Positions 11,771 to 27,089 of a stretch of 27,089 nt of DNA are shown piece by piece. Within the stretch, counting starts at the first letter, position 1. The number at the start of each line of letters is the position of its first letter. The notes beneath the pieces are model-generated. The model saw only the letters and a program-made list of their open reading frames with translations, made no database searches and was not told the origin of the DNA. The stretch is taken from positions 1 through 27,089 of the IMG/VR virus record IMGVR_UViG_3300048834_000195, one strand, 5' to 3'. A program made the translations under genes and the position numbers. This DNA comes from a virus.

Positions 11771-12340
11771 TTATCTTCCGTCTTCTTCTTCAGATGGTAC
11801 AGGTAGCGATTTTACTAGCTGTGCATCTATATCTAAAGTAAGAAGGATCTTTACCATTTGCGGATTTGCGGCAAAGTCATACGCTGTACATGTGAACTGC
11901 TGCACTGACTTCACTAGCTTACCCATCTTGGTATGTGGTGCCAGTGATTTACGGACAATGTCTTCATGGAAGACTACTTGTGTTTCTGCATCTACATCGA
12001 TGATGGTACGTTGATTTTGGAGTGCCTTAAAGATGCCTGTCTCTAGCGCCTGGTGTCCTATGGTCTCATTGATCATATCACGCTCGTCACCGAATACAGT
12101 CTCTGTAAATAGGATGACATTAAACGATATAGGTCCGTGCTGAATACCATTAGGCAACTGGATGAACTCTGTAGGTAGAAATTCTATATACGCTACAGGC
12201 GTACCAAGTACTTCGCCATCTTCCTGGTCTTGACCTAGATACCAATCTACTCTGATGTATTGTGTCTCATTCTGCTCCGGTGTACGGTAGTGAGGATATC
12301 GTAGTTTGTGCTTTAGGATGGTATAGATATTAGCTAGCAT
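11771..12340 (-). CDS. Probable neck or tail-completion protein
   Basis: This 189-residue protein (ANIYTILKHKL, VAYIEFLPTEFIQLPNGIQ, ISFNVILFTETVFGD) resembles small phage connector or tail-terminator proteins in length and in the order of helix then strands. It overlaps the gpG-like gene by several bases and lies with head-tail genes. The name is by context; an exact family is not recognised. Confidence 0.5.
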   Translation of the reverse strand: MLANIYTILKHKLRYPHYRTPEQNETQYIRVDWYLGQDQEDGEVLGTPVAYIEFLPTEFIQLPNGIQHGPISFNVILFTETVFGDERDMINETIGHQALETGIFKALQNQRTIIDVDAETQVVFHEDIVRKSLAPHTKMGKLVKSVQQFTCTAYDFAANPQMVKILLTLDIDAQLVKSLPVPSEEEDGR

Positions 12341-12800
12341 TAAGGATACGATTAAGGTGATTGGAAATGATGTCTACGTGTATTTGCTCCAGCTTTGCAG
12401 ATGATCCCATGAACTGACGTTGTGGCATCACCGTGTCTACCGTCCTGTTGTGGGTTTTGACAGTTCTGCCCTTACGTGTATGCGAGCGTACGGATGCAGT
12501 AAACTTCCTAGGGCCGCCTTCATTGTGTATCTGAGCATAAGGGATTTCAGTGTAGATCGTTGCACTCAGACCGTTGATCTCTGTACGGATGGACCTACGT
12601 AATGCACCGGACTCTACAAGTGGTCTTTGCTTGATATTACCTGACTTATCCCGGACTGGTTTCCATGGAGTAAGCGATGTATCTGTAAAGCCTTTATTGC
12701 TGAATGACTCATCAAAAAAGTTGCGTGACTCGACAGCTAGTTCCTTTACTATCTTGGGTAATGCTGCTTGTATAGCCTTCAAGTGTTGATCAAATATCAT
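12330..12800 (-). CDS. Virion morphogenesis protein, Mu gpG-like
   Basis: The protein has the hallmarks of the Mu G / P2 gpS-like tail completion family. It has an N-terminal helical part, TPWKPVRDKSGN, VESGALRRSIRTEI, YAQIHNEGG and a C-terminal MPQRQFMGSSAKLE (the usual MPaRpFLG.S). It joins head and tail during assembly. I place the start at the ATG at 12800 (MIFDQHLKAI), giving 156 aa, because a TATTTTTG promoter element covers the TTG codon at 12822-12824 that a longer frame would need. It has a likely promoter of its own and overlaps the next gene. Confidence 0.85.
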   Translation of the reverse strand: MIFDQHLKAIQAALPKIVKELAVESRNFFDESFSNKGFTDTSLTPWKPVRDKSGNIKQRPLVESGALRRSIRTEINGLSATIYTEIPYAQIHNEGGPRKFTASVRSHTRKGRTVKTHNRTVDTVMPQRQFMGSSAKLEQIHVDIISNHLNRILNAS

Positions 12801-12821
12801 TTGTATGCTGTGTGAATGATA

Positions 12822-12829
12822 CAAAAATA
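12822..12829 (-). promoter_or_regulatory. -7 element upstream of the gpG-like gene
   Basis: On the minus strand TATTTTTG matches TAnnTTTG and lies about 20 bases before the chosen ATG at 12800. No -33 element is found at the normal distance, so support is moderate. Confidence 0.4.
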
Positions 12830-12875: not shown

Positions 12876-12883
12876 TATATTTG
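12876..12883 (+). promoter_or_regulatory. -7 element upstream of the reversed zinc-ribbon gene
   Basis: TATATTTG lies 20 bases before the ATG at 12904, with a very A/T-rich leader. It is back to back with the minus-strand element at 12822-12829, so this 79-base gap looks like a divergent promoter region. Confidence 0.45.
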
Positions 12884-12903: not shown

Positions 12904-13134
12904 ATGGGAATGTTTTCAGAACGTTGGGCAGTACCTACACTTAAAGATGTACATAAATTAAAGGCTTGTCCTTTTTGTGGTAGTGATGACTTACATATTA
13001 CTAAAACACCTTCACGTGATGGTTCAGTAATATTTTTTAAAATTTCGCATCCTGCAACTTCTGAGTGTTCAGTTAGTATTATTGATACTAAGAGTGAAGA
13101 AAATTTAATTAGAATTTGGAATCAAAGAGTATAA
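12904..13134 (+). CDS. Lar-like zinc-ribbon protein, reversed within the late genes
   Basis: This 76-residue protein contains KACPFCGSDDLHI near the start and ENLIRIWNQRV at the end. These are the two conserved ends of the restriction alleviation protein Lar family, which includes many phage zinc ribbons. The second Cys-x-x-Cys pair expected in the middle is reduced to one cysteine (TSECSVSI), so zinc binding may be incomplete. It lies on the opposite strand from the genes on both sides, is A/T-rich and has its own promoter-like site, all typical of a moron gene. It also sits directly 3' of the toxin-like MuF gene, where an immunity gene would be expected. Confidence 0.7.
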   Translation: MGMFSERWAVPTLKDVHKLKACPFCGSDDLHITKTPSRDGSVIFFKISHPATSECSVSIIDTKSEENLIRIWNQRV

Positions 13135-13188: not shown

Positions 13189-13226
13189 CACAGAGCCAGG
13201 TGATGATGTTTTCACTTGGCTTTGTG
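13189..13226. repeat. 15-bp hairpin overlapping the 3' end of the MuF-like gene
   Basis: Positions 13189-13203 pair with 13212-13226, with two G-U pairs in the + strand RNA and an 8-base loop. The right arm includes the last codons and stop of the minus-strand gene. There is no strong T tract. It may be a terminator for the zinc-ribbon gene on the + strand. Confidence 0.45.
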
Positions 13227-14498
13227 CTTTGTAAGAACATCATTCTGATAAAGCCAAATATCTATTTTAAACTTCCTTAAACGGTCTGAAGCAAATAACT
13301 TGCTGAGTAGTCTAGCTGCATCCGTATCATTGGTGATGTGTAGGATTATGACTTTGGCTTTGTCCTGGTGTCTAGATGTGAGTAATGAATCTATGACTGC
13401 ACCTTTCTTTCTTACTACCTTTTCTATAGTGTCGATATCATTACTACCAAGCTGCTTGTAGTCTGCCACAACATCATTGCCTATCAGATAGTCGGGCGTG
13501 CCTTTGTACCTATTGTCTATTTTTGGCAACATGGTAATAGGCTTACCATCTATCAGCTTCAGAAGTTTTGCCATGGAGTGTTTTTTCTCAAAGTCTTCTG
13601 CATTTGAGTAGTTGGTATAGTGTACGTCTATAGTATCTATCGTATCGTAGAATGATTTGTCTTGTATCATATCATTCCTGGTACTGATGATCTTATCTTT
13701 GATCTTGGGTGTGACATCAAAGTATGGATGATCATCGGTCCATATCTTTCCGGTCTTTCCTGGATTGGATCGGAAAGCTGGTGGATGGCTTTTGTCATCA
13801 GGTAAGGCCGTCGGGTCTGTGGTGTATCCATCATCAGTCCTGGACTGTAGGACATAGCATCTACATTGCCATCCATTGGGTGGGTAATATTGATCCCAAA
13901 ACTCATCATCTATATGCTTGGCCACATTGTGCAATGATCGGTGAGCCATACGGACTTTGTTATCATCTTGGGTTTTATACACCAGGTATGGGAAAATATC
14001 TTTGGTATCTTGGAAGTCATTCCATTGTGCTGCTGTCTGAGCGGATGCCACTACAGTATTGTATTCTGCCTTTAACCAAGATTTGTGATATGTCTCACCT
14101 AGTCTGATTACTTCACGTTCGTAAGCAGCATAGTTTCTGATGTTTCCCTTTTCATCTATTAGCGCTCTTATCATATCAGCTGATCGCTGATAGTTTTTAA
14201 ATGCTACGAAGGTAGTCAGGTTAGTCCTTAGACGTAGCAATGTGGATGCCTTGGTATCTGAGTAATTTGCTAGATCTATTTTGGCATCATTGGCAAATGA
14301 CTCTACAGCTTCGTATAACGTCTTATGCTCTTTGAGAGAAATTTGCTCGTTGATCTTTGTAGTATCTTTACGTTCGTACTGCATCCGGGCCGCTTGCCTG
14401 AGTAAGTCACGAAGGAGAGACACGGGATTGAAATCCAACTGATGATGAGCATGGCAACAAAGATGTTCATAGATATCGTTTACTTGGGAGTGATTCAT
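13212..14498 (-). CDS. MuF-like minor head protein with a C-terminal CdiA-type nuclease-like domain
   Basis: This 428-residue protein has two parts. Residues ~120-220 hold the SPP1 gp7 / Mu F head morphogenesis core, including KVRMAHRSLHNVAKHIDDEF and YYPPNGWQCRCYV (residues ~181-215). A linker contains FRSNPGKTGKIW and HPYFDV (~242-262). The C-terminal part (~295-428) has MAKLLKLIDGKPITMLPKID, GTPDYLIGNDVVADYKQL with P335-D336 and D346-x-K348, AKVIILHITND and IDIWLYQNDVL. That order fits CdiA-CT / tRNA-nuclease-like PD-(D/E)xK toxins. MuF proteins with variable toxin tails are known in temperate phages. The gene overlaps the portal gene by one base. The fusion is confident; the toxin activity is inference. 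Confidence 0.85.
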   Translation of the reverse strand: MNHSQVNDIYEHLCCHAHHQLDFNPVSLLRDLLRQAARMQYERKDTTKINEQISLKEHKTLYEAVESFANDAKIDLANYSDTKASTLLRLRTNLTTFVAFKNYQRSADMIRALIDEKGNIRNYAAYEREVIRLGETYHKSWLKAEYNTVVASAQTAAQWNDFQDTKDIFPYLVYKTQDDNKVRMAHRSLHNVAKHIDDEFWDQYYPPNGWQCRCYVLQSRTDDGYTTDPTALPDDKSHPPAFRSNPGKTGKIWTDDHPYFDVTPKIKDKIISTRNDMIQDKSFYDTIDTIDVHYTNYSNAEDFEKKHSMAKLLKLIDGKPITMLPKIDNRYKGTPDYLIGNDVVADYKQLGSNDIDTIEKVVRKKGAVIDSLLTSRHQDKAKVIILHITNDTDAARLLSKLFASDRLRKFKIDIWLYQNDVLTKHKAK

Positions 14499-15643
14499 TA
14501 CTTTTTTGTTTTGGCTACTACTTCAGCTTTGGTATCTGTATTGTTGTCAGCTGCGTTGTTTTCTTTGCCTTCATTCTTACGTAGGTCCACAAATTCAAAC
14601 TTTGCTTCACCTATCGGATAGTCAAAGTATGTGGCTAGGAATGGGAAAAGGTCAAAGTTGATATGATACTGTATCCTACGCATACGTGCGAGGGTGTATT
14701 TATTCAGCTGTCGTTCTTGTACTTCAGCATTACCAGCATAGGCAACTTGTTCGGATGATGCTGTAGTACCATTGACTAAGAAGGCAATACACTTATCAGC
14801 ATATTCCAGGAACTTTTCAAAGGTGACGTGTCCACCACCTGTTTGGCCCATTGCTTCTTTGATCTCGATTGTATCAAGGTCATCTATCAAGGCCCATCCT
14901 GATGCACCGAAATTCTCAAGCATTTCTTGTTTGGCATCAAGTTCGGTTTTATTTTGGCTTGCTGTCTTCATGGTAATGAATGGTATGCCAAAACGTTCGT
15001 TACGACGTCCCCAGTCACCTAGGTTGTAGTCTTTTCTTATGACTAGCTTAGAGATAGCCTTGAGTAATCCAAGGTCATCAGCGTCACCGATAGCGATCAG
15101 ACGGCCAAGTAGTGGATCTTCTTCCCAACTCACACCATCATCATCTGAAGGCATCAGGATGATTTGTTTTTTGAGTGGATCCACATGCTCACGTGGTACG
15201 AGGATAATTTCCTTTACAAATCCATCATCTCCCCTACGTGGTTCTATAAGTGAGTAACCATACAACTCAGTGTCGACACACATTTCAAGATACTTAAAAA
15301 ACCAAGGTGTATCGAATAGCTTTACCAAGTCTTCGCTATTGGTATTATTTACCATCACTTCAAAATCTCCCATTTGGATATTGAATCTAGCAGTACGGAC
15401 CTGTGCAAGTAACTGATCATCTTCCATGATCCTGTGATAGAGCAAATACATTTCTTCCCTATTCGGTCGCTGATTATCTTCAGCTGCTTCGATGGCTTGT
15501 TTCCATTTCTTCAGGGATGCTTCTACCCTGTAGTTGTATCTTTTGATTTGTTTAGAAATGGATCTCTTTTCATCAGAGAAATTCTTAACATTTGTAAGAT
15601 CTGTTTTGCTGGAGAAAAACCAGTTTTTAATTTTATCTAACAT
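14498..15643 (-). CDS. Portal protein, Mu gp29-like (DUF935)
   Basis: The 381-residue protein matches the Mu gp29-type portal family. It has YHRIMEDDQLLAQVRTARFN near residue 70, PWFFKYLEMCVDTELYGYSL, and an IPFITMKTASQNKTELDAKQ segment. Then come GGGHVTFEKFLEYADKCIAF and the typical SSEQVAYAGNAEVQERQLNK. It would form the ring through which DNA enters and leaves the head. It is somewhat shorter than Mu gp29. The C-terminus is Ala/Lys/Asn-rich (NNAADNNTDTKAEVVAKTKK). The stop overlaps the MuF start by one base. Confidence 0.93.
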   Translation of the reverse strand: MLDKIKNWFFSSKTDLTNVKNFSDEKRSISKQIKRYNYRVEASLKKWKQAIEAAEDNQRPNREEMYLLYHRIMEDDQLLAQVRTARFNIQMGDFEVMVNNTNSEDLVKLFDTPWFFKYLEMCVDTELYGYSLIEPRRGDDGFVKEIILVPREHVDPLKKQIILMPSDDDGVSWEEDPLLGRLIAIGDADDLGLLKAISKLVIRKDYNLGDWGRRNERFGIPFITMKTASQNKTELDAKQEMLENFGASGWALIDDLDTIEIKEAMGQTGGGHVTFEKFLEYADKCIAFLVNGTTASSEQVAYAGNAEVQERQLNKYTLARMRRIQYHINFDLFPFLATYFDYPIGEAKFEFVDLRKNEGKENNAADNNTDTKAEVVAKTKK

Positions 15644-18223: not shown

Positions 18224-18237
18224 GGTGCAAATATCTA
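18222..18237 (-). promoter_or_regulatory. Promoter-like word before the terminase operon
   Basis: On the minus strand, TAGATATTTGCACCAT ends at the AT of the terminase start codon. It contains a one-mismatch -7 element (GATATTTG). It is nearly the same as the word before the + strand protease gene (18349-18364) and before the 34-aa gene (11273-11288). No normally spaced TTTG is visible upstream, so an activator may be needed. Confidence 0.5.
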
Positions 18238-18348
18238 AACAAAAACTAAGGTAATTTATATAAATATTCTAAATAACAATGTAGTATAAGTACTTAACAA
18301 TCAAGCTTGTAGTTTAAATTATTACGTTTTTTTTGTATGTTTTTTAGC
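18238..18348. other. A/T-rich divergent control region between packaging and capsid operons
   Basis: About 110 bases of A/T-rich sequence lie between the two promoter words, with long A and T tracts (18323-18334) that may bend the DNA. No ORF, tRNA or strong palindrome is seen. It is the natural site for a late activator shared by both operons. Confidence 0.45.
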
Positions 18349-18364
18349 TACATCTTTGCATCAT
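18349..18364 (+). promoter_or_regulatory. Promoter-like word before the capsid operon
   Basis: TACATCTTTGCATCAT matches the word on the other side of the divergent region at 12 or more of 16 positions. The -7 box CATCTTTG has one mismatch to TAnnTTTG. A TTTG lies 15 bases upstream (18332-18335), shorter than the usual spacing. The protease start follows 18 bases later. Confidence 0.5.
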
Positions 18365-18382
18365 CAAACACGGAAATAGTAG

Positions 18383-20399: not shown

Positions 20400-21440
20400 A
20401 TGAAACCACTTTTTAGAATCAACTTAATTCTGCTGGTCTTTACAGCAATTTTCACAAGCTGCGAGCCTGATAAGGCTATCGAAAAGGCAGATCCTACCAA
20501 ACATGCAAGTACTGAACTCAGAGGCGCAAACGGCGTACTTTGTTGTGTAGATGGACCTTTGTCTAATCCAAATGTTGACTGCAAGTATAACAATGATGCC
20601 TGTGTTACCATCGTAGATAACACACTGAAGGGCTACCTAGTGACACCACAGCAAAATGGTACATTATATCAAAACTGCATACCACAGGGATACTGCTGGA
20701 CAGCATTAGAATGTCAGACCGCACAGTATTGGTATGATTACACTTCGCCATATTTCTACATAGATGATGGAAGTAATAACTGTGGCGGCTGGTCTTATGG
20801 TATGGCTACAAGTGGCCAAACAACTTCACAACTGAATAATGTAAATCTAGCTTTTACCGGAACGAACTGGGATACTGGACAGCCTGAGACCCAATATTGT
20901 GATCTGTATTTTAACTACTTCGCTACGCCTGATGATGGTAATAGATTTAGTAGGTCCTACTGGCGACACGGAGTAGACTCATGTGATGCAAATATGATCG
21001 ATAGATTTATAGCAGGACAGATGATATTAACAGCATGGCAGCGGATGGCAGCGGATGCGGATGCGGATGGTGACATAGATGCCAATGATAGCGAACTTAT
21101 CAGACAGTTAGCAGGCGTGACCGCTGTAGGATCACTGCCCACATGCAGTGTAACTGGAGCCGTCGGATTAGGTACATCACCTTATGTATATGTCAATCAA
21201 AGAGCCTATCATATAGCAGCTAGTAATTGGGCAGTCAATAACGATCAAGTCAAGATCACACGCCTGGCATACATCAATGAAAGGCTTCCCGAAAGATTGA
21301 TCAATACAGTGACAGGATGCAAGGTTACCAATCCATGGGGCAATTTTAACACAGCGCCATATAATTACGGACTTGGCAAACACTGCTATGTGATCAAGCG
21401 TGGTGATGTGAATGCAAGTCATTATCCTAGTATCTGCTAA
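20400..21440 (+). CDS. Exported Cys-rich lipoprotein with a dockerin-like calcium loop
   Basis: The 346-residue protein has a signal peptide (KPLFRINLILLVFTAIFTSC) with a lipobox cysteine at C21, followed by EPDK. An acidic stretch here resembles the Bacteroidota signal for display on the outer surface. The mature part has 14 further cysteines and many aromatic residues. Residues 219-230 (DADADGDIDAND) place Asp at positions 1, 3, 5, 9 and 12, Gly at 6 and Ile at 8, as in dockerin or EF-hand calcium loops, followed by SELIRQL. A second GDVNAS stretch lies at 335-340. No enzyme motif is seen. It sits between the capsid and holin genes, yet is unlike a virion protein. A surface factor made by the lysogen, or a superinfection-exclusion lipoprotein, is plausible. 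Confidence 0.8.
   Translation: MKPLFRINLILLVFTAIFTSCEPDKAIEKADPTKHASTELRGANGVLCCVDGPLSNPNVDCKYNNDACVTIVDNTLKGYLVTPQQNGTLYQNCIPQGYCWTALECQTAQYWYDYTSPYFYIDDGSNNCGGWSYGMATSGQTTSQLNNVNLAFTGTNWDTGQPETQYCDLYFNYFATPDDGNRFSRSYWRHGVDSCDANMIDRFIAGQMILTAWQRMAADADADGDIDANDSELIRQLAGVTAVGSLPTCSVTGAVGLGTSPYVYVNQRAYHIAASNWAVNNDQVKITRLAYINERLPERLINTVTGCKVTNPWGNFNTAPYNYGLGKHCYVIKRGDVNASHYPSIC
21038..21070 (+). repeat. Short GCGGAT tandem repeat in the calcium-loop codons
   Basis: GGCAGCGGAT occurs twice and GCGGAT three times in a row, coding for Ala-Asp repeats just before and inside the dockerin-like loop. A gain or loss of one 6-base unit would keep the reading frame and lengthen or shorten the Asp-Ala run. 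Confidence 0.6.
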
Positions 21441-24570: not shown

Positions 24571-27089
24571 ATGAAGTATTTAAGTATCATTCTAATGTTA
24601 TTTGTATGCCATTTAAGTGGCATTACACAAACTGTAATTCCACTTCCTGGATATCAAGCTGTATTAAATGTATTCCCGACTGTGGAAGATGACACGCTGA
24701 TCACCGCTGAGTTTTCAGTTACGGACTTCAGTAATCAGTTTAATGGTACTGATATAGTAGGCCGTGAGAATCTTGTTATATGGCGTAATTGCCAAAGATA
24801 TCCAGTACTCGCAGTTGATCAAGCGTTTGCAACATCGGTGATCCTTCAGCTGAATAAAAATGGTAATCCTAATTTGGTTCCTGGTGTATGTGCATTGCTT
24901 CAGGAGACGCCTGGCATGGTGTCACATTTGATATCAGGTATAACGGACTCAGATAAGCAGTGTATAGATAGTTATTATCGGGTCGATGGTGGTGGTTCGG
25001 ATAGTTGTTGTATAGAAATATACCGTACTGATACCATACCTGATAATCCTGAATATGGCGACTTAAAGTATAATGTAAGTGCTGAATTTGATATATGGCA
25101 GGTGTGGGATGGCACACAATGGCTCACAATATATGATGGTGATAATGATCGTACAAATGAGCTTACTACCTACAAATTTTATTACGGTATGGGAATGAGA
25201 CCACCGGGAGACAAAAACGGTGATATCTTAATAGACTATCAAGATGATTATGTCAAATATTGGAATTTCGGATGGTATGATTTATTCCCAATCAACCAAG
25301 TAACTGAAAGTACAACGGTGTCAGATACACCTACTTTGGATTTGAATATGAGTGGGTATGATATAAGTGGTGTTGTAGATACTTCTATAATAGGCACTAA
25401 ACATGATCTTACACTGATAAGAATAGACACCACACTTAATCAAGATTTAACCATAAGTGGAGACACTTTATATTTAAGTGGTGATCCTACACCAGTACCA
25501 CTACCAATCTTATCAGGTCCAGCAGGTCCAACAGGTCCGACGGGTGCAACAGGTGCCACAGGTCCAGCAGGTCCAATTGGTTTGACAGGTCCGACGGGTG
25601 CAACTGGAGCTACAGGCGCTACAGGACCGACAGGTCCTATTGGTTTGACAGGTCCAGCAGGTCCGACAGGCCCGACAGGTGCCACAGGTCCTACAGGCCC
25701 AGCAGGTCCAGCCGGTGACCCTGCTACAGATGATCAGACTTTGACACTTTTAGATTCTATAAACAGAGTCTTCAGGTTAAATATATCAGGTGGTAATACT
25801 GTGTCTTTTAAAGATACGGATGCACAGACATTGACTCAGTCATTTACTAGTCCATCTTATGCAACTGCATCGCTTGTCAATGGTGGTAGCTATAGAGATA
25901 GTACAGGATATATGAGATTAGAAACTCAGATAGCGACTCCTGGTAGTAGATTCTACAGATACAAGAGTAACCTTGGTGATATCATGGGAATGGCTGAAGA
26001 TCCTTCCCTTACTAATAGTGGTAATATAGAGATACTGAGATCAGGCAATGTAATGTCTTGGGGATTGAAAACACTTGGCGCTACTAATGGTAAGATATGG
26101 AAGTATAATGGTAGTGCTTGGGCCTTGAGTGATGATAATGTAGGTGGTTCGGGAACCGTCACAGGTACAGGTTCTGCAAATAAAGTAAGTTATTGGACAG
26201 GTACTAATTCGCAAGGTTTTAATAATAATTTTCACTATGATCCTATAACTGAAAGGTTAGGTTTAGGTACTGGTAGTCCTTTATATAAACTTGATGTCAC
26301 GGATGATATTAGGGTGAACGAAGCGAGAATAGGAAAAGGTGCTGGAAATATTGTAAACAATTTATGTTTTGGAAATGGAGCATTAAATTCGATAACTACA
26401 GGATTTCAAGATTTGGCATTTGGTTTTGGCGCCCTCGCAGCATGTACAACTTGTAATGGATCATTAGCGATAGGTAACAATACTCTTCAGAATAATTTTA
26501 TAAGCGGTACAAATGTCATTGCTATAGGTAACGGAGCAATGGAAAATGCAAGTAATGTGTCAAACTGTCTAGGCTTAGGATTTCAGGCACTAAGAAATGT
26601 AATTGCATCTAATAACATTGGGATTATGTCCGGCCAACTTCTAACAAGTGGAACTCAAAATATATTAATTAACCCGGGTGTTACTGGCGTTACTACTGGG
26701 AATAGGAATTTAATTGCAGGCCATGAAGCAGGTCAGGGCATCGGATCTGGATCTGACAACGTAATATTTGGGCGTAGGGCGGCATGGAGTATGTCTAATA
26801 CATCTGGGTCTATTGTAATAGGTGCATTAGCGGCTTTTAATGAAACATCTGGTAATGTTCTATATATTACCAACCAAACAGGTACCACAAATGGAGTTTT
26901 TGGAAGTTATGCCACGGCTAAATTTGGGATAAACCAAGCGCCTTCAGCGATGACACACACATTTGATGTAAATGGTGACACACGTGTACGTGGTGCTTTA
27001 TACAATGCTTCAGGATCAAGTGGATCCACAGGCCAATTTCTTACTTCAGGTGGTGCAGGCACATTCACATGGACAAATGCTCCAGTAAA
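24571..27089 (+). CDS. Exported collagen-like and YadA-head-like fibre protein (partial)
   Basis: The frame stays open from ATG 24571 to the window end (839 residues, 3' end missing). Residues 1-20 look like a signal peptide ([20 protein letters not shown]). Residues ~25-315 form an unrecognised domain with an EF-hand-like loop at 214-225 ([12 protein letters not shown]). A collagen-like Gly-X-Y run covers residues 316-384. Further on are fibre-type repeats ([30 protein letters not shown]). A YadA-head-like section at ~595-760 contains [14 protein letters not shown] and [14 protein letters not shown]. The end ([16 protein letters not shown]) usually precedes a C-terminal intramolecular chaperone in tail fibres. 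Confidence 0.85.
25516..25722 (+). repeat. 23 Gly-X-Y collagen-like codon triplets
   Basis: Nine-base units of the form GGT-CCA/GCA/ACG-N run in frame without interruption, coding [12 protein letters not shown] and GLT triplets and ending in GDP. Two larger units ([10 protein letters not shown]) repeat inside. In such proteins three chains form a rigid triple-helical stalk. The DNA repetition invites length change by slippage. Confidence 0.9.

Follow-up and report, generated by a model that had tools for sequence, protein, structure and literature searches.

A phage MuF head protein carrying a predicted CdiA-type nuclease domain as a variable C-terminal tail

The MuF gene and its C-terminal domain

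The stretch examined here (the window) spans 27,089 bases and comes from the IMG/VR class of virus records (IMGVR_UViG_3300048834_000195). Its open reading frame (ORF) at 13212..14498 encodes, on the minus strand and from an ATG start, a 428-residue MuF head protein followed by a separate C-terminal domain that resembles the CdiA-type nuclease toxins (Table 1). The same interval read on the plus strand is interrupted by stops throughout. The MuF core named in the original prediction is clearly there, since PF04233 (Phage_Mu_F) matches residues 122-216 with 57 bits against a curated cut-off of 29.6 (E 3.8e-15); the PPNGWQCRC motif at residues 206-214 contains P206, P207, N208, C212 and C214, which are invariant in 28 full-length relatives. 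The tail motifs also lie exactly where that prediction had placed them: P335-D336, D346-Y347-K348, VIILHITND at 383-391 and IDIWLYQND at 412-420.

Table 1 Features at the MuF locus of the window
Feature	Position	Strand	Evidence
MuF minor head protein with C-terminal nuclease-like domain, 428 amino acids	13212..14498	-	PF04233 E 3.8e-15; full-length AlphaFold model
MuF domain, residues 122-216	13851..14135	-	PF04233
C-terminal PD-(D/E)XK, CdiA_C-like domain, residues about 277-428	13215..13670	-	profile, family, model, structural match
Predicted catalytic motif P335-D336 ... D346-Y347-K348, beta hairpin	13455..13496	-	model strands; column tally in 36 tails
Portal protein, directly upstream of MuF	14498..15643	-	PHROG 113 portal E 2e-24
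Lar-like zinc-ribbon ORF, 76 amino acids, convergent with MuF	12904..13134	+	PHROG 599 E 6e-7; PF14354 25.5 bits, below cut-off 28.6
TATATTTG, -7-like word, 20 base pairs before the Lar-like ATG	12876..12883	+	fit to TAnnTTTG
gpG-like tail completion (Phage_tail_S) protein, next late gene past MuF	12330..12824	-	PF05069 E 2e-11; PHROG 26 E 3.9e-19

When residues 277-428 were searched alone, no useful match was found in NCBIfam, PHROGs or the PDB. A tblastn search with the tail of the window and that of its closest relative (L010), each alone, returned nothing at E 1 from 50,697 phage records, and viral contigs gave no match when either the whole MuF protein of the window or only its tail was the single query. 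Against PF18451 (CdiA_C) the window tail alone scored 15.4 bits (E 0.021), below the cut-off of 26.6 bits, and it is for this reason that we call it CdiA_C-like. An alignment of four tails was too divergent to serve as a scan profile. A profile of the MuF core, made from four sequences, collected 80 loci from the viral contigs, some of which are the same sequence twice; their MuF proteins were compared together with those of eight GenBank phages.

An iterative profile search joined 36 extensions, the window's included, into one tail family, of which 30 were aligned. The profile of this alignment matched 4g6v_A in the PDB, the CdiA-CT transfer RNA (tRNA) nuclease of Burkholderia pseudomallei 1026b, with an E-value of 5.5e-8. 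In this match PD lies on PD and the column of window D346 on the D of FDNY, while the lysine column, K348 in the window, is a tyrosine in the Bp1026b toxin. Taking the D of FDNY as Asp223, an active-site residue of that toxin (PMC9086364), the D of its PD would be residue 214. PF18451 itself was matched by 24 of the 30 aligned tails at E 1 or better (best E 2.1e-14). The CdiA_C kinship originally put forward is supported by the family profile, while the window tail as a single sequence stays below the gathering score.

With the window and L010 both excluded from the profile, the tail of the window still reached 23.3 bits (E 2.4e-5, calculated for 10,000 sequences). The best of 3,000 shuffles of this tail reached 16.2 bits with the same profile, so that the match is more than chance. 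The closest relative keeps the PD and has E-Y-K, at a tail identity of 45%. Sub-threshold matches to Phage_TAC_9 were set aside as chance, since they fall short of the evidence from profile and fold and do not recur among the relatives.

Predicted fold and motif geometry

AlphaFold models of the tail, using the 30-tail alignment, and of the full-length protein, using 28 sequences, had predicted local distance difference test scores (pLDDT) of 87.4 and 88.7 and predicted template modelling scores (pTM) of 0.83 and 0.86, respectively. In the model, a linker helix (264-277) is followed by helix 300-317, strands 321-323, 337-339 and 343-350, helix 355-374 and strand 381-388. This order of helix, three strands, helix and strand is the basis on which a PD-(D/E)XK core is assigned. 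Since strands 337-339 and 343-350 form a hairpin, D336 would lie opposite D346, with K348 on the same face, and the three residues should occupy the strand positions expected of a PD-(D/E)XK hairpin. The proposal that they meet in one site thus gains the predicted core fold, with the geometry of the site itself read from secondary structure.

The top structural match of the tail model was again 4g6v_A (Z-score 11.2 over 121 residues, 3.2 Å, 12% identity), followed by the XisH family (2okf, Z 9.7; 2inb, Z 9.4); other CdiA-CT toxins, which are DNases, came lower (4zqu, Z 7.5; 4g6u, Z 6.9). With Foldseek alone, nothing in the PDB matched below E 0.001, and 4g6v was ranked first only in the second alignment pass, in which matches at Z 6-7 (for example acetyl-CoA carboxylase) are background. 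The top BFVD matches to the model were minor capsid proteins, consistent with the MuF identity. The family profile, the predicted fold with 4g6v on top and the motif geometry all bear out the CdiA-type, PD-(D/E)xK toxin-like tail of the original prediction.

Variation of the tail among related phages

The related MuF proteins either end soon after the core or carry an extension, and no tail is present in 24 of the 77 measured loci. Some extensions at the same place are of other kinds, which we have classified by eye as papain-like, HExxH (metallopeptidase-like) and ADP-ribosyltransferase-like. Because the relatives thus have no tail, a CdiA_C-like tail or another enzyme-like tail, the extension is a variable effector cassette and not a structural domain. 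That it is an independent domain, and no universal structural part of MuF proteins, is well supported; its absence from about a third of the related proteins excludes the possibility, raised earlier, that it is a plain structural domain common to all of them.

Within the 36-member family, the [D/E]...[D/E]xK pattern is retained in 21 tails, and E replaces K in 7; of the 34 tails covering the two acidic positions, 31 retain both. At the columns of window residues 336 and 346, an Asp is mostly paired with a Glu, arranged as E...D.K or as D...E.K; the pattern of the window is D...D.K.

Between several closely related phages it is mainly the tail that differs. In five pairs of relatives (L034/L045, L029/L103, L063/L078, L121/L123 and L050/L136), identity is 0.78-0.93 for the core, 0.37-0.54 for the tail and 0.73-0.91 for the next gene. 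The DNA of L034 and L045 is ~95% identical up to the tail start, 36-73% identical across the tail, and ~95% identical again from ~50 nucleotides past the MuF stop. The ratio of nonsynonymous to synonymous substitution rates (dN/dS) in the tail is about 0.09-0.26 where computable, with synonymous sites near saturation. Such tail-only divergence may reflect exchange or fast divergence, both of which fit the data.

The region downstream of MuF

The gap between the MuF stop and the nearest following gene of at least 120 amino acids is below 150 base pairs (bp) in 30 of the 36 measurable loci with the CdiA_C-like tail class (median 96.5 bp), so that most of these loci have no room for the usual immunity gene. 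In the five pairs with strongly diverged tails it is 92 bp or less, and the next gene is still similar. On the other side of MuF in the window, the portal gene directly adjoins it and leaves no space for an extra gene.

The gaps of the window (411 bp) and of L010 (363 bp) each hold a different convergent small ORF. That of the window, the Lar-like ORF, is the sole candidate neighbour gene at the locus and stands by itself opposite to the late operon, flanked by the MuF and gpG-like genes; L010 has at the same place, and in the same direction, an ORF of 81-88 amino acids with no resemblance to it. The word TATATTTG before the Lar-like ATG fits TAnnTTTG, which we take to be the Bacteroidota -7 element; as a promoter element it is weak, since 13 such words occur on the plus strand of the window. 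Between MuF and the next gene neither a terminator-like site nor an unusual RNA fold (z -1.24) was found, and promoter-like sites are no more frequent than in shuffles. As an immunity gene the Lar-like ORF is a weak candidate, kept here as a rival only, and an immunity gene may lie elsewhere in these phages.

In contrast to the CdiA_C-like tails, the papain-like tails of L004 and L006 show a divergent block that runs ~200 nucleotides past the MuF stop and spans most of a small convergent ORF, as expected for a toxin with its immunity gene. Similar small convergent ORFs are found in L004 (4369-4620), L005 (4168-4467), L006 (4184-4447) and L009 (4258-4542), all on the minus strand. They overlap the 3′ end of the papain-tailed MuF genes in Bacteroides p00-type phages and are candidate antisense immunity genes.

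Phage context

The minus-strand genes follow the order terminase, gp36-like adaptor, portal, MuF and gpG-like, with MuF adjoining the portal in the head and packaging module. The left end of the window encodes a MuA-type transposase (PHROG 310, E 9.5e-49) and a MuB-like protein (PHROG 296, E 1.8e-52), and a tail sheath gene is also present, which together identify a Mu-like, contractile-tailed phage. Judged by its sequence it is probably temperate, and its nearest relatives are phages and prophages of Bacteroidota. From a gap at 18224-18382, the genes for packaging, portal and MuF point leftward and those for capsid and tail rightward; the late region is therefore divergent. Between the major head protein and the tail genes, a plus-strand ORF (20400-21440) encodes a 346-residue protein with a lipoprotein-like signal, MKPLFRINLILLVFTAIFTSCEP, a calcium-binding-like stretch, DADADGDIDANDSE, and no PHROG match. 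In the tail region, 24571-27087 on the plus strand, open at the record end, encodes a long protein with a collagen-like run.

Discussion

Taken together, the above results make it probable, in our view, that the protein is an effector borne in the virion of a Mu-like temperate Bacteroidota phage, and that its MuF head part carries a nuclease tail of the CdiA-CT Bp1026b type and is probably co-injected; our confidence in this is moderate. The computations provide the domain make-up, the fold class, the motif, the cassette-like variation of the tail and the temperate-type phage context. By analogy with the MuF literature, the N-terminal domain would build the protein into the head beside the portal. 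The tail would be a PD-(D/E)XK nuclease, with D336 and D346 as its metal site and K348 as the catalytic lysine. Made late in the lytic cycle and packaged in the head, the effector would most likely enter the next cell together with the DNA, again as MuF precedents indicate, and there cut nucleic acid; by kinship with the Bp1026b toxin, tRNA is a first guess. Since most relatives lack an adjacent immunity gene, the data suggest that the producing cell, already lytic, needs no protection and that the effector could act during infection instead of being a classical toxin paired with its own immunity protein. We infer the nuclease activity, the tRNA target and the benefit to phage or lysogen from these likenesses.

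Several points weigh against this interpretation. The window tail by itself falls short of the PF18451 cut-off, and XisH (2okf), a non-toxin, scores just under 4g6v_A in the structural comparison. The motif residues are lost in L002 (Winogradskyella phage Peternella_1, also present as L068), L014, L052 and L045, and seven tails have E for the lysine, so not every tail need be active. In addition, nuclease activity is a prediction, and packaging and ejection are taken from the MuF literature.

A sharper form of the virion-borne effector is possible, and we hold it tentatively: the injected protein would act early in infection against nucleic acids of the host or of resident elements (for example tRNA or defence RNA), with the phage's own infection as the beneficiary, tails as arms-race alleles, and no immunity protein needed. 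MuF fusions to PBECR and other domains that are injected with DNA provide the concept and the precedents (PMC5512222), and both the general lack of adjacent immunity genes in the relatives and the tail-only divergence, whose dN/dS is low although synonymous sites are near saturation, are in line with it. However, the closest solved relative of the tail acts against bacteria and is paired with an immunity protein (PMC9086364), and inhibition of bacterial growth is the effect of those MuF toxins that have been tested (PMC11699363).

Another reading is a classical MuF polymorphic toxin, whose tail would kill or stall non-lysogenic competitors while lysogens would be shielded by the ORF at 12904-13134 or by another phage gene. 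Here we regard this as rather unlikely. Bxa, the MuF toxin of a Bacteroides prophage, does have two tested immunity proteins (PMC11699363), the papain-tailed sisters L004, L006 and L009 have a small convergent ORF that diverges along with the tail, and both the window and L010 carry a convergent small ORF at that place. However, the window ORF is Lar-like, a common phage cargo gene, and the L010 ORF is unlike it; moreover, the short gaps at most loci of the tail class, and the conserved next gene in the five diverged pairs, speak against it. Action on competitors, as first suggested for this protein, may thus be one of two live readings, the standard toxin and immunity layout being missing at most related loci; the missing immunity genes slightly favour a role in infection itself over one in lysogen competition. 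That the tail extends the head protein for structural purposes, nuclease-like in fold and with no enzymatic role, would agree with the motif losses listed above but is very unlikely, given the tail-less loci, the unrelated enzyme-like domains found at the same place elsewhere and the retention of both acidic positions in nearly all tails that cover them.

MuF toxins are among the few proposed cases in which the phage particle itself would deliver a protein toxin, and in the known model an immunity gene is expected next to the toxin. Should the CdiA_C-type tails truly be without one, as these loci suggest, the question of their target (a competitor, a superinfecting phage or the host defence) becomes a direct one, for which near-identical phage pairs differing mainly in the tail are natural material. 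It is conceivable, although we would not yet call it probable, that a widespread class of Bacteroidota phages injects a MuF PD-(D/E)XK nuclease with cassette-like alleles and no dedicated neighbouring immunity gene, as an immunity-free weapon of the infection phase.

Comparison with known systems

The protein is like the MuF polymorphic toxins in joining MuF to an exchangeable C-terminal toxin domain of the same toxin class in a temperate phage (PMC5576092). The combination of MuF with a CdiA_C-type toxin is already known, since cd13442 (CdiA-2 Bp1026b type) is named among the MuF toxin domains in that survey. There, MuF toxins come mainly from Firmicutes phages and a small ORF comes after 89.4% of the genes (Jamet et al. 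2017, PMC5576092), whereas here the phages are of Bacteroidota and the gap at most loci of the tail class is too short for such an ORF. In the cited MuF literature we found no description of the spread across many phages of Bacteroidota, nor of variation that is confined to the tail and poor in immunity genes.

Bxa and its MuF relatives in Bacteroidales prophages share the MuF head protein with an enzymatic tail and the bacterial phylum. However, the tail of Bxa is an ADP-ribosyltransferase, two immunity proteins are encoded next to it, its homologues carry deaminase and alarmone synthetase tails, and the main text of that report mentions no CdiA_C-type tail (PMC11699363). In phage Mu, gp30 (MuF) bears a C-terminal PBECR domain (PMC5512222), likewise an RNase-like domain on a head protein of a Mu-type phage; PBECR has another fold, is kin to metal-independent RNases and is predicted to be inactive in Mu itself. 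A head-borne effector delivered with DNA is supported by this work on MuF fusions, mostly by inference there (PMC5512222, PMC5576092, PMC11699363). XisH (2okf, 2inb) shares the PD-(D/E)XK-like fold, but its members are cyanobacterial excision controlling factors, neither phage head proteins nor toxins.

The best match in both profile and fold is 4g6v, the CdiA-CT of B. pseudomallei 1026b, a nuclease of the tRNA-Ala acceptor stem. Both acidic residues are aligned, and the toxin differs in the tyrosine at the K348 column, in its export by two-partner secretion instead of a phage head, and in its partner CdiI. The D-x-K spacing of the window, in turn, equals that of Ser209-x-Lys211 in the TA271 toxin (PMC9086364).
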